A stretch of DNA of 42,641 nucleotides. Source: Gammaproteobacteria bacterium. GTDB lineage: Bacteria > Pseudomonadota > Gammaproteobacteria > DSM-19610. Below, one piece after another: positions 11,992 through 14,399 of this stretch (position 1 is the first letter of the stretch; each line of letters begins with the position of its first letter). A program made the translations under genes and the position numbers. A model generated the notes under the pieces. It saw only the letters and a program-made list of their open reading frames with translations, made no database searches and was not told the origin of the DNA. The stretch is from contig JAPHQV010000022.1 of the NCBI GenBank assembly GCA_026197075.1, positions 1-42,641 on the forward strand, written 5' to 3'.

Positions 11992-12004
11992 TAAGGAGGA
12001 GATG

Positions 12005-12421
12005 ATGAAGTCCCTGGCAATCGTGGTACGTGATGATGGGTACGACAAGCTGCTCACCCCCCTGGCCTTCGCCTATCTGCAGGGCGCCGAAGGGACCCAG
12101 GTGGATATGCTGTTCGTCAACTGGGCGGTGCTGGCGTTGACCGAGGAGGGCGCCCACCAGCAATGCATCCAGGGCGAGCATGCCGACCGGGATGCCTGGG
12201 TGCGGGAGCGGGTGGGCAAGGCCGGCCTGCCGGAGGACATCTACGACGTGATCAAGGCCCTCAAGGCCACCGGCAACGTCAATTTCTATGCCTGCAGTCT
12301 CGCGGCCGGGATCTTCGGGGTGGATCAGGACAACCTGATCCCGGAGGCATCCGGCATCGTCGGTGCCTCCTGGTTCCTGAATGACAAAGCGGCGCACGCC
12401 GAACACTGCCAATACTTTTAA
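12005..12421 (+). CDS. DsrE-family sulfur-transfer protein (cytosolic)
   Basis: A 138-residue protein of the DsrE/DsrF fold. ATG 12005 is preferred to ATG 12002, because AGGAGG (11994-11999) then has a five-base spacing. The N-terminal strand is LAIVVRDDGYDKLLTPLAFA. The conserved cysteine is C97 in FYACSLAAGI, matching the position of the persulfide-carrying Cys in DsrE2/DsrE3-like proteins. C54 and C135 are extra. Unlike membrane DsrE2 it has no hydrophobic helices. Such proteins pass sulfane sulfur with TusA in sulfur oxidation. The TusA gene follows 11 bases later, so the two form an operon under the TetR operator. Confidence 0.85.
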   Translation: MKSLAIVVRDDGYDKLLTPLAFAYLQGAEGTQVDMLFVNWAVLALTEEGAHQQCIQGEHADRDAWVRERVGKAGLPEDIYDVIKALKATGNVNFYACSLAAGIFGVDQDNLIPEASGIVGASWFLNDKAAHAEHCQYF

Positions 12422-12432
12422 GGAGTCGAGTC

Positions 12433-12669
12433 ATGAACAAGCTTACCGTTACCCGCCAATTGGACACCTCCGGCAAGTGTTGCCCCATGCCGATCGTCGA
12501 AACCAATGTGGCCATGAAAACGATCCATTCCGGCGAAGTGCTGGAAATCGTGGCAACCGATCCCGGCACCCGGACGGATATCCCTTCCTGGTGTGAACGT
12601 ACCGGGAATATTCTGGTCGACACGGATGAAACCGATGGGGTGTTGCATTACTACGTGCGCAAGAGCTGA
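12433..12669 (+). CDS. TusA-family sulfurtransferase
   Basis: A 78-residue protein of normal TusA size. C17-P-M-P20 is the CPxP motif whose cysteine carries a persulfide. It is preceded by a second cysteine, C16, giving an unusual CC pair. The rest follows the family (LEIVATDPGTRTDIPSWCERTG), including the C-terminal DP and a further Cys. AAGGAG lies over the DsrE stop, seven bases before this ATG. Housekeeping TusA serves tRNA thiolation. The linkage to DsrE and a TetR regulator instead suggests a role in dissimilatory or detoxifying sulfane-sulfur transfer, by analogy with rhd-tusA-dsrE clusters of sulfur oxidisers. Confidence 0.92.
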   Translation: MNKLTVTRQLDTSGKCCPMPIVETNVAMKTIHSGEVLEIVATDPGTRTDIPSWCERTGNILVDTDETDGVLHYYVRKS

Positions 12670-12777: not shown

Positions 12778-12816
12778 AAAAAAGGATTGATCAGAGGCCC
12801 CTAAGGAGTCATGAAC

Positions 12817-13311
12817 ATGAAAATCCGTCTGAACGCCATTCTGGCGCTGATAATGCTGCTGTGTTCCCTTTCCGTGGCAGCAGCCGAAATCCATGATGCC
12901 GCGGCCCTGGGGGATCTCAAGCAGGGCAAGGGTGTGTTCCTGGTGGATATCGGTGAGCCGGGAAAGCTGGCCTTCTACCTGAAGGTGATCGAGGGTACCT
13001 ACCAGGGAATGAAGGATCAGGGCGTAACGCCGGATTTCATCCTGGTGTACATCGGCCCCAGCGTGAAATATCTCTCCACGAAACCCGATGAAGACCTGAT
13101 GTTCGAACACAATGATGCGCTGCAGAGCATTGCCGAACGTGTCGCCGCACTGGGTGAGCTCGGCGTGCGCCAGGAGATCTGTGCCGTCGCCACCCGGGCG
13201 TTCGCCATTGATAACGGCGCATTGTTGCCGGCCCTGACCCTGGTGGGTGACGGGTTCATCTCGCTGATCGGCTGGCAGGCCCAGGGGTATCACCTGGTGC
13301 CGGTGTTCTAG
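12817..13311 (+). CDS. Periplasmic DsrE-like protein
   Basis: A 164-residue exported protein. The third in-frame codon pair is ATG 12817, eight bases from AAGGAG (12803-12808); ATG 12811 is too close. Residues 1-23 form a signal peptide (ALIMLLCSLSVAAA-E). The mature part has the DsrE-like fold seen in periplasmic family members: KLAFYLKVIEGTYQGM, ILVYIGPSVK, then C122 within RQEICAVATRAF and the ending LTLVGDGFISLIGWQAQGY. C122 is the only mature cysteine and a candidate sulfur carrier. Presence beside the TusA operon suggests sulfur metabolism outside the cytoplasm. It has no operator of the TetR type and is separated by a REP element. Confidence 0.82.
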   Translation: MKIRLNAILALIMLLCSLSVAAAEIHDAAALGDLKQGKGVFLVDIGEPGKLAFYLKVIEGTYQGMKDQGVTPDFILVYIGPSVKYLSTKPDEDLMFEHNDALQSIAERVAALGELGVRQEICAVATRAFAIDNGALLPALTLVGDGFISLIGWQAQGYHLVPVF

Positions 13312-13400
13312 GATAGGGGCGCCCGATGTTCAGTGCGTGGGCGCGAATGAACCAGGAACCCTCTGATTAATCCACATTACGTCATCCCGGCGCATACCCT

Positions 13401-13428
13401 CGTCATCCCGGCGCATGCCGGGATGACG
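13401..13428. terminator. Perfect palindrome between converging genes
   Basis: CGTCATCCCGGC pairs perfectly with GCCGGGATGACG around a GCAT loop. A single extra arm copy (CGTCATCCCGGCGCAT) lies just before, at 13380. It sits between two converging genes and could stop transcription both ways, but has no T run. It is probably a truncated relative of the family A palindromes. Confidence 0.5.
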
Positions 13429-13445: not shown

Positions 13446-14399
13446 CTAGAACCCGAACGCCGCCGCTTCACGCTGCCGGTAGGCTTCATGGGCATTGCGC
13501 CCCGCCAGTTCCTCGAAATCCGCCAGTGACTGCCAGGAGCTGGAGTCGAACGCGTTGATGGCGGACTGCATGTCGGTGCCCGCGTCCACGGCCTGCTGCA
13601 TGTGCTCGAGCAGGGCGGTCAGATAATCGCGGTTGCCATGGGCGAAGTCGGACAGCGGGCCGGCTTCACCGTGGCCGGGCAGGAAGCGCGCATCGGGATA
13701 CTGTTCCAGCCGCTCCCAGGCCTGCAGCCAGCCTTCCAGGTCACTTACTTCCGATACCAGCGACAACAGGCGACCACGATAGAGCACGTCACCGGCATAG
13801 ACCAGATTATCCTGGGGCACATGCACGATGAGGCTGCCCGGGGTGTGGGCCTGGCCCACCGCGACGATCTCCAGGGATACCCCGCCAAGGTCCAGGGTGA
13901 GCTTGTCCTCCACCAGCTTCTCCGGCGCCGGCGGTGTGGCGATACTGCCGTCCGGCAGCTCCAGCGTCGTCTCGATGGTGCGGGCGAAGGCATCACCCGA
14001 TGCCTGCATGCGCGGCAGGGCCTCCTGGCCGGCGACGAGGGTGGCGCCCTGCGCCTGGAAGGGGCCGTTGCCCATGAAGCGATGGGGCTGGGAGTTGCTG
14101 TTCACCACGTAGCGCACGGGCCGTTCGGTGATGAGACGGATATGACGCAGCATGTCGTTGGCCATGGCGGGGCCGTAGCCGGAATCGAGCACCGCCACCG
14201 CGTCCTGGCCCACCACGAAGGCCAGGTTCATGCGGTAGCCGTTGTTGTCCTTGCTGGGTCCGCCATAGGGTCCTATCCAGGCCCAGACATGTTCGCTGAT
14301 CTGCGTGGGCTTGGGCAGGATCCAGTCCTCGGCGGCGACGGGTGTGAGCCACAGGCAGGCGAACAGCAGCCAGACGGGATGGGAAAAGGCAGGTTTCAT
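13446..14399 (-). CDS. Exported MBL-fold protein with altered zinc motif
   Basis: A 317-residue protein with a signal peptide (about 1-23, PVAAED) and AAGGA upstream. It aligns with periplasmic metallo-beta-lactamase-fold hydrolases of the SoxH/quinoprotein-relay type: DSGYG near 72, H185 in GQAHTPGS, D204 in YAGDVLY, H243 in PGHGE. The main motif HxHxDH reads N102-S-Q104-P-H106-R107, so the first three His and the Asp are all replaced. A normal two-zinc site is therefore not expected. It may be a non-catalytic binding protein, use one metal, or have a new activity. It is transcribed convergently with the periplasmic DsrE-like gene. Confidence 0.82.
   Translation of the reverse strand: MKPAFSHPVWLLFACLWLTPVAAEDWILPKPTQISEHVWAWIGPYGGPSKDNNGYRMNLAFVVGQDAVAVLDSGYGPAMANDMLRHIRLITERPVRYVVNSNSQPHRFMGNGPFQAQGATLVAGQEALPRMQASGDAFARTIETTLELPDGSIATPPAPEKLVEDKLTLDLGGVSLEIVAVGQAHTPGSLIVHVPQDNLVYAGDVLYRGRLLSLVSEVSDLEGWLQAWERLEQYPDARFLPGHGEAGPLSDFAHGNRDYLTALLEHMQQAVDAGTDMQSAINAFDSSSWQSLADFEELAGRNAHEAYRQREAAAFGF

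Follow-up and report, generated by a model that had tools for sequence, protein, structure and literature searches.

The metallo-beta-lactamase (MBL) fold and the SoxH name are both already known, and several described systems come close to the protein considered here. SoxG of Paracoccus pantotrophus is reported to contain close to one Zn, and SoxH of the same species is said to hold fractional (substoichiometric) Zn and Cu. Subclass B2 MBLs carry Cys at position 221. The NCBIfam models TIGR04558 and TIGR04559 describe quinoprotein relay system zinc metallohydrolases 1 and 2, respectively, which are related to SoxH (SoxH_rel_PQQ). Chlorothalonil dehalogenase (Chd; PDB structure 6UXU) has one catalytic Zn per site, with Asp116, His117, Asn216, and His257 as ligands (PMC12784990). 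SoxH could replace SoxB in Sulfurimonas strain CVO, according to a paper that cites other work on this point (PMC11237559).

Fold, export signal, and metal motif of the window protein

We analyzed an MBL gene in the window, the whole 42,641-nucleotide stretch of DNA under study (Table 1). Its open reading frame starts with ATG and encodes 317 aa without interruption, intact as the original prediction had it. The protein scores 49.3 bits against Pfam PF00753 (Lactamase_B; cutoff, 22.7) and is a member of the MBL-fold superfamily. AlphaFold2, given an alignment of 55 sequences, modeled it with a mean pLDDT of 96.0 and a pTM of 0.91, the lowest pLDDT values falling in residues 1 to 10. With K2, a hydrophobic stretch from residue 9 to 22, and VAA/ED, the N terminus resembles a signal peptide by eye, and the protein is probably exported. 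Its sole cysteine is residue 15, within the signal region. The mature protein would thus contain no cysteine and would not itself be a persulfide carrier.

By alignment, the H-H-D-H positions of the canonical motif correspond to N102, Q104, H106, and R107. Residues 98 to 112 of the window protein read VVNSNSQPHRFMGNG, and canonical family members at the same stretch read, for example, VINTHVHPDHIFGN. Where the MBL superfamily has HxHxDH, the window protein has NSQPHR, confirming the claim that all four residues are changed. The later MBL ligands align with H185, D204, and H243, which are kept as predicted. The histidines of the protein lie at positions 7, 37, 86, 106, 185, 193, 243, 254, 266, and 304, and a search of the entire protein found neither HxH nor HxHxDH. 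This rules out an alternative location, in which another nearby segment supplies the motif. In the model, the motif sits at the start of a helix spanning residues 105 to 108, with H106 in place of Asp.

The top match among solved folds was 6UXU (Z score, 32.3; root mean square deviation [rmsd], 2.2; 277 residues aligned), followed by 8D2Z (Z score, 31.4; rmsd, 2.6; 273 residues aligned); B1 and B2 lactamases matched with Z scores of 24 to 26. Since 6UXU is mononuclear and a close structural relative, the scaffold can work with partly replaced ligands. Against the NCBIfam B2 model the window protein scored 55.6, compared with a cutoff of 240, and it reads NxQxHR rather than NxHxDR.

Table 1. 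Positions of the MBL gene, its motif and ligand positions, and its neighbors in the window
Feature	Coordinates	Strand	Basis
Q-type (SoxH-clade) MBL-fold protein, 317 aa	13446..14399	-	ORF; Pfam Lactamase_B; AlphaFold2
Probable signal peptide, residues 1-23, MKPAFSHPVWLLFACLWLTPVAA	14331..14399	-	By eye
NSNSQPHR, residues 100-107, in place of NTHxHxDH	14079..14102	-	Alignment
H185, retained ligand position (= His196)	13845..13847	-	75/77 distinct Q-type rows with a letter there
D204, retained ligand position (= residue 221)	13788..13790	-	76/77 distinct Q-type rows with a letter there
H243, retained ligand position (= His263)	13671..13673	-	77/77 distinct Q-type rows with a letter there
Exported DsrE-family protein, convergent neighbor	12811..13311	+	Pfam DsrE 1.9e-6; signal-like N terminus
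TusA-family sulfur carrier	12433..12669	+	Pfam TusA 9.3e-23
Cytoplasmic DsrE/DsrF/DsrH-like protein	12002..12421	+	Pfam DrsE_2 3e-8

Single origin and conservation of the Q-x-H motif

Some match to the window protein was present in 38 of 56 related genomes, and a scan of GTDB contigs for relatives returned 64 loci. The 14 closest (L048 to L061), 49 to 87% identical to the window protein, come from metagenome genomes and from genera that oxidize sulfur, including Thioalkalivibrio, Sedimenticola, Thiohalocapsa, Thiohalobacter, and Thiogranum, with a Chromatiales MAG and others also represented. All 13 close relatives with an intact motif region (L049 to L061) read N[ST]NSQ[PA]HR, in agreement with the suggestion that NSNSQPHR is conserved in a subclade; the relative L006/L037 reads NSQAAR. 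Widening the search gave matches in 71/369 genomes of the class (E value, 1e-30; both motif types) and in 15/398 genomes of the phylum (1e-60). These wider searches added members of two further Q subgroups, G[GSAT]QDHR-like and ENGQxHA-like, which also occur outside the class and in Alphaproteobacteria (plasmid records).

To describe conservation, we reduced 103 rows to 78 distinct ones (<95% identity), counting a row as Q-type if its residue 104 was Q or E and its residue 106 was H, Q, or A, a definition that leaves the variant L209 uncounted and makes the percentages slightly high. Q104 was present in 76 of the 78 rows, H106 in 75, and N302 in 77/77; counts for the later ligand positions are given in Table 1. 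A first set of 48 Q-type sequences, which excludes L005 because of a deletion, gave 46 for Q104, 45 for H106, 46 for H185, 47 for D204, and 48 for H243. Canonical relatives had H104 and D106 in 24/24 cases each. The signature retained by the Q-type family is Q-x-H together with the later H, D, and H. Positions one and four of the motif vary: position 102 is N in 45 rows and G in 33, and position 107 is R in 50, A in 23, and something else in 5 (among R, A, S, Y, and H). Thus, all four residues do differ, but the informative part of the change is only HxD to QxH. No cysteine occurs past residue 40 in 61/78 rows.

Three of the 78 rows have lost H106 (A once, Q twice), and the sister sequences L011 and L138 have E for Q104 and Y for H185, with D204 also missing from L138. 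This pair looks like erosion of the site in one lineage. The H106 losses, together with the joint loss of H185 and Q104 in one small lineage, indicate that a Q-type site can erode.

Origin was assessed with quick trees, using SH-aLRT as the single support measure. All 48 Q-type rows of an 87-sequence tree fell to one side of a single branch (SH-aLRT, 98), and the same branch had a value of 95 with the motif columns removed. Support for the Q branch was 94 in a 95-row tree to which Paracoccus and other rows were added and from which motif columns were omitted. The switch from HxD to QxH has one origin, on one branch of the tree. Within the Q clade, dN/dS was 0.071 to 0.177 in nine codon comparisons, which indicates purifying selection on its genes. 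The change had been attributed to neofunctionalization rather than decay. The conserved motif, dN/dS of 0.07 to 0.18, and pLDDT of 96 agree with this, but the change dates to the family ancestor. It is no peculiarity of the window protein but the hallmark of a large single-origin clade that includes the Paracoccus SoxH position.

A genome of the same genus (G001) carries an orthologue (L048, 7965 to 8815; also L036) whose C-terminal part is 87% identical. At the DNA level, an internal deletion joins the "MNL" codons to "RFMGN," shifting the frame and removing the motif region; this is either gene loss or an assembly fault. We rejected the EPDR of this copy (L005/L036/L048) as a partial reversion to D. 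Given the deletion and frameshift, the copy is uninformative on the motif and was excluded from the counts. In a separate relative, L209 (5227 to 6228; G072), the sequence reads ENGDLHATTGN, with D instead of Q; it may be an intermediate or another Q-clade variant.

We also observed a second set of altered MBLs, from several phyla, with Asn or Asp in place of the second histidine (HxNxDH or HxDxDH instead of HxHxDH; L067 to L070, L072, L073, L075, L076, L078, L080, L082 to L088, L091, L097 to L100, L102, L105, L106, and others). In the tree, nine HxNxDH rows group together as a single clade (SH-aLRT, 100).

The sox clusters of three Paracoccus records (P. ferrooxidans, P. denitrificans, and P. 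versutus; L242 to L244) run soxB, soxC, soxD, soxE-like, and soxF-like, followed by two MBL genes. The annotation of L242 names soxB and soxC; for soxD to soxH we assigned the names ourselves, on the assumption that the P. pantotrophus gene order applies. The SoxG-position MBL (303 aa) reads THGHPDH and retains HxHxDH. The SoxH-position MBL reads NENGQGHAMLGN and groups with the ENGQ subgroup inside the Q clade (SH-aLRT, 99). The window protein shares a clade with this SoxH-position protein, apart from HxHxDH relatives. The metal contents reported for SoxG and SoxH, if right, fit an altered site in SoxH.

The best NCBIfam matches of the window protein were TIGR04559 (170.9 bits; cutoff, 280) and TIGR04558 (128.9 bits; cutoff, 300), both far below cutoff. 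Fetched members scoring over the cutoffs had HxHxDH at 12/12 TIGR04559 loci and 5/6 TIGR04558 loci. We looked for a PQQ dehydrogenase near the window gene and recognized none between 8.4 and 17.9 kb, where six genes and TusA were judged by Pfam and the rest by eye. Membership in the quinoprotein relay group was rejected, since the score is below cutoff and the members have HxHxDH. The suggested alignment with SoxH and quinoprotein relay MBLs thus gave a divided result: the SoxH position is Q-type, but the relay MBLs have HxHxDH and are a different group. One TIGR04558 member over the cutoff (L152; G125) has NLHPDY and a G at the D204 position, which is another altered site.

Gene neighborhoods of Q-type genes

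In the window, the MBL gene is convergent with the gene for the exported DsrE protein, beyond which lie genes for TusA and the cytoplasmic DsrE-like protein. The neighbor had been described as a periplasmic sulfur-carrier-like protein; it belongs to the DsrE family and has a signal-like N terminus (Table 1), but the pairing is kept only within the genus, recurring only in the same-genus genome (L048). As the adjacency is confined to the window genus, we rejected a DsrE partnership as a general feature of the family. At L061, a different DsrE protein is encoded upstream of the MBL. Between the convergent genes, positions 13380 to 13428 hold CGTCATCCCGGCGCAT[AG]CC twice, together with an inverted repeat that is perfect over 12 bases, which look like a dispersed-repeat-like hairpin; no classical terminator was found at these positions. 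At one end of the window, positions 1 to 2000 have a GC content of 0.455, compared with 0.61 to 0.70 elsewhere, and contain an ORF (509 to 1591).

The window gene is not in a sox cluster; its neighbors are DsrE, TusA, TetR, and others, and SoxB is on contig C26. Because dsrA and soxB both score over cutoff in the window genome, the organism is a probable sulfur oxidizer. A chrB-chrA pair is located on another contig, without the MBL. Separately, a canonical paralogue (HYHADH) lies directly downstream of another gene for an exported protein of about 160 aa, DsrE-like as judged by eye, in three genomes of the window genome's family (L182, L194, and L195), L182 being contig C21 of the window genome itself. 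A comparable paralogue follows a tadA-like gene in several other genera (L188, L189, L191, L198, and L201).

We then considered 59 Q-type loci with flanks, taking the four nearest called genes on each side. Left out of this set were same-contig duplicates (L038 to L040), short loci (L114 to L138), L036/L048 (deletion), L044 (split gene), and L209 (ENGDLHA). The controls were 23 canonical-paralogue loci that we chose from the listed matches, plus L063. Gene calls at these loci are our own choice of ORFs rather than annotation, and the seeds for the phmmer neighbor test came from Q-type loci only, which biases the test away from canonical-locus families.

A chrA gene (chromate transporter family) was near the MBL in 9/59 Q-type loci (L049, L050, L051, L052, L057, L058, L059, L163, and L166) versus 0/23 controls. 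Five of the nine are from Thioalkalivibrio, and the nine represent about five genera. The chrA neighbors are mostly accompanied by chrB and sometimes by a rhodanese gene. The pair arsC and acr3 was near the MBL in 3/59 Q-type loci (L178, L206, and L216) versus 0/23 controls. Enrichment of chr and ars over the controls gave a one-sided Fisher P value of 0.014, with relatedness ignored. Neither a chr nor an ars pair was among the eight nearest called genes at 47/59 loci, and at many ENGQ-type loci no sulfur or metal neighbor was seen.

Several loci illustrate these arrangements, and the gene families were confirmed for the examples named. L163 is a whole chr operon, with chrB, two chrA genes, superoxide dismutase, rhodanese, the MBL, and a ChrB_C protein. 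The order at L178 is arsR-arsC-MBL-acr3, and the MBL gene overlaps both flanking genes by 4 bases; L216 has rhodanese genes on either side and an arsenite methyltransferase. Outside the counted 59, the split MBL copy at L044 adjoins arsJ, and at L240 and L253 the neighbors include ArsR and an ArsP-type permease. Fusions of an exported rhodanese domain with the MBL occur in the ENGQ subgroup, at L034 (by Pfam) and at L127 and L136 (by eye). Single neighbors include TusA (L168), an SQR-like flavoprotein (L169 and L214), and a multiheme cytochrome (L035 and L054). Outside the window genus, chr, ars, rhodanese, TusA, and sox genes are the recurrent partners of Q-type genes. The word "lactamase" was not found in the accessible part of a Thioalkalivibrio arsenite transcriptome paper (PMC6620896).

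Proposed site, competing explanations, and relation to known systems

From the sequences, we lean, with somewhat better than even confidence, toward a site that has been rebuilt as a single-metal center serving periplasmic sulfur/thiol chemistry. The window protein, which is probably exported, belongs to the SoxH clade of the MBL fold, and in the ancestor of that clade the two-metal motif HxHxDH was rewritten once to [NG]xQxH[RA], with H185, D204, and H243 kept. The alignment suggests a single-metal center of the H106-D204-H243 type, in which H106 would replace Asp120 and H185 and Q104 would lie beside it. Working with one metal would then resemble subclass B2 lactamases and chlorothalonil dehalogenase. 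The protein may act in the periplasm on sulfur- or thiol-bound adducts that proteins of the rhodanese, TusA, DsrE, and Sox types produce or process, among them adducts arising from contact of chromate or arsenic with thiols, and would do so as a hydrolytic or binding partner rather than a persulfide carrier. We infer both the metal and the reaction of Q-type proteins. As substrate we propose, from gene neighborhood alone, thiol adducts of sulfane sulfur, Cr, or As, because these would unite the sox, chr, ars, and rhodanese contexts. Several observations weigh against the rebuilt site and this role: the site has eroded in a few rows, 47/59 Q-type loci lack chr and ars pairs nearby, the window gene itself lies outside any chr/ars operon, with chrBA on another contig, and the G001 copy is cut by a deletion. 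A broader claim seems to us rather doubtful: that Q-x-H proteins form a distinct MBL catalytic class with a His3-Asp single-metal center and that SoxH and its chr/ars relatives are a general periplasmic thiol-adduct enzyme, which would take apart sulfane sulfur, thiol-chromium, and thiol-arsenic species.

The main alternative is a metal-free pseudoenzyme. Its MBL fold would serve in the periplasm as a scaffold or to bind an oxyanion, a thiol, or a sulfur-carrier protein, and structure or ligand binding would explain why H185, D204, and H243 persist. Difference at all four main-motif positions speaks for this, and R107 adds positive charge to the site in 50/78 rows, H106 is dispensable in 3/78, and P. 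pantotrophus SoxH is reportedly substoichiometric in Zn and Cu. However, three His and one Asp are each kept in >95% of distinct rows, which exceeds what oxyanion binding or a scaffold would need, and D204 would be expected to repel an anion; we regard the pseudoenzyme as possible, though on the improbable side. A different kind of alternative, concerning role only and overlapping with the rebuilt site, is a specific chromate- or arsenic-resistance factor for which the sulfur contexts are incidental. The occurrence of chrA in 9/59 and arsR-arsC-acr3 in 3/59 loci, with 0/23 in controls, would make sense for such a factor. Yet in Paracoccus the gene comes last in a sox cluster, rhodanese, TusA, and SQR-like neighbors occur without chr or ars, and with 5/9 chr loci from Thioalkalivibrio there are fewer than 12 independent events. 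A dedicated resistance role appears unlikely.

That TIGR04559 and TIGR04558 are the top NCBIfam matches might suggest an ordinary two-metal hydrolase of the quinoprotein relay (SoxH_rel_PQQ) type whose motif has merely diverged. This is very improbable, given scores far under the cutoffs, fetched members that have HxHxDH save L152, a window protein without HxH, and no PQQ dehydrogenase identified nearby. Decay of a gene without function is scarcely credible, even with the G001 copy frame-broken by its internal deletion and the L044 copy split: the window frame is intact, dN/dS in the clade is 0.07 to 0.18, and the motif is conserved in many genera. The dN/dS values refute decay for the family, leaving room for relaxed selection within the window genus alone.

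These results suggest that proteins under the SoxH name fall into two groups whose active sites differ, the HxHxDH quinoprotein relay proteins and the Q-x-H proteins of sox, chr, and ars operons. The split yields a clear prediction on metal content. Operons that carry the gene offer knockout targets with a readable phenotype, tolerance of chromate or arsenite. For enzyme evolution, this is a case of a metal-site motif giving way to another one, which many genera have since retained. The general thiol-adduct enzyme, if true, would give SoxH a function and would link sulfur oxidation and oxyanion detoxification through one protein family. In the literature covered, which is largely outside subscription journals, we found no description of Q-x-H in SoxH and none that places an MBL gene in a chr or ars operon; this is weak evidence of absence. 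Within that coverage, Q-x-H as the signature of the SoxH clade, the distinction between this clade and the quinoprotein relay group, and the chr/ars operon copies are apparently new.

Of the described proteins, Paracoccus SoxH shares the MBL clade, the Q-x-H change, and the retained H, D, and H with the window protein; it is likewise of the exported type and from a sulfur oxidizer. It differs in its subgroup motif (ENGQGHA versus NSQPHR) at about 30% identity, and its gene ends a sox cluster, whereas the window gene is outside any sox cluster. The TIGR04558 and TIGR04559 proteins resemble the window protein in fold and overall length and give its top NCBIfam scores, but 17/18 fetched members have HxHxDH, and no PQQ dehydrogenase was recognized near the window gene. 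Chd (6UXU) is the nearest full-length solved fold and also departs from the full ligand set, with mononuclear Zn (PMC12784990). Its pattern is the opposite one, however: the H, D, and H of the motif are retained (NTSYHGDH), and the counterparts of H185 and D204 are lost. The B2 MBLs CphA and Sfh-I are known mono-zinc enzymes (PDB titles), and CphA has N and R at motif positions one and four (NTNYHTDR), with H and D where the window protein has Q and H. Since N and R also occur in B2 MBLs, the distinctive part of the window motif is Q-x-H. The Burkholderia cenocepacia MBL-superfamily protein 8d2z is the closest PDB sequence (E value, 1.2e-20) and the second closest fold, and it too lacks the D and H of the motif (SHYHAVR), but unlike the window protein, it retains both His of HxH.
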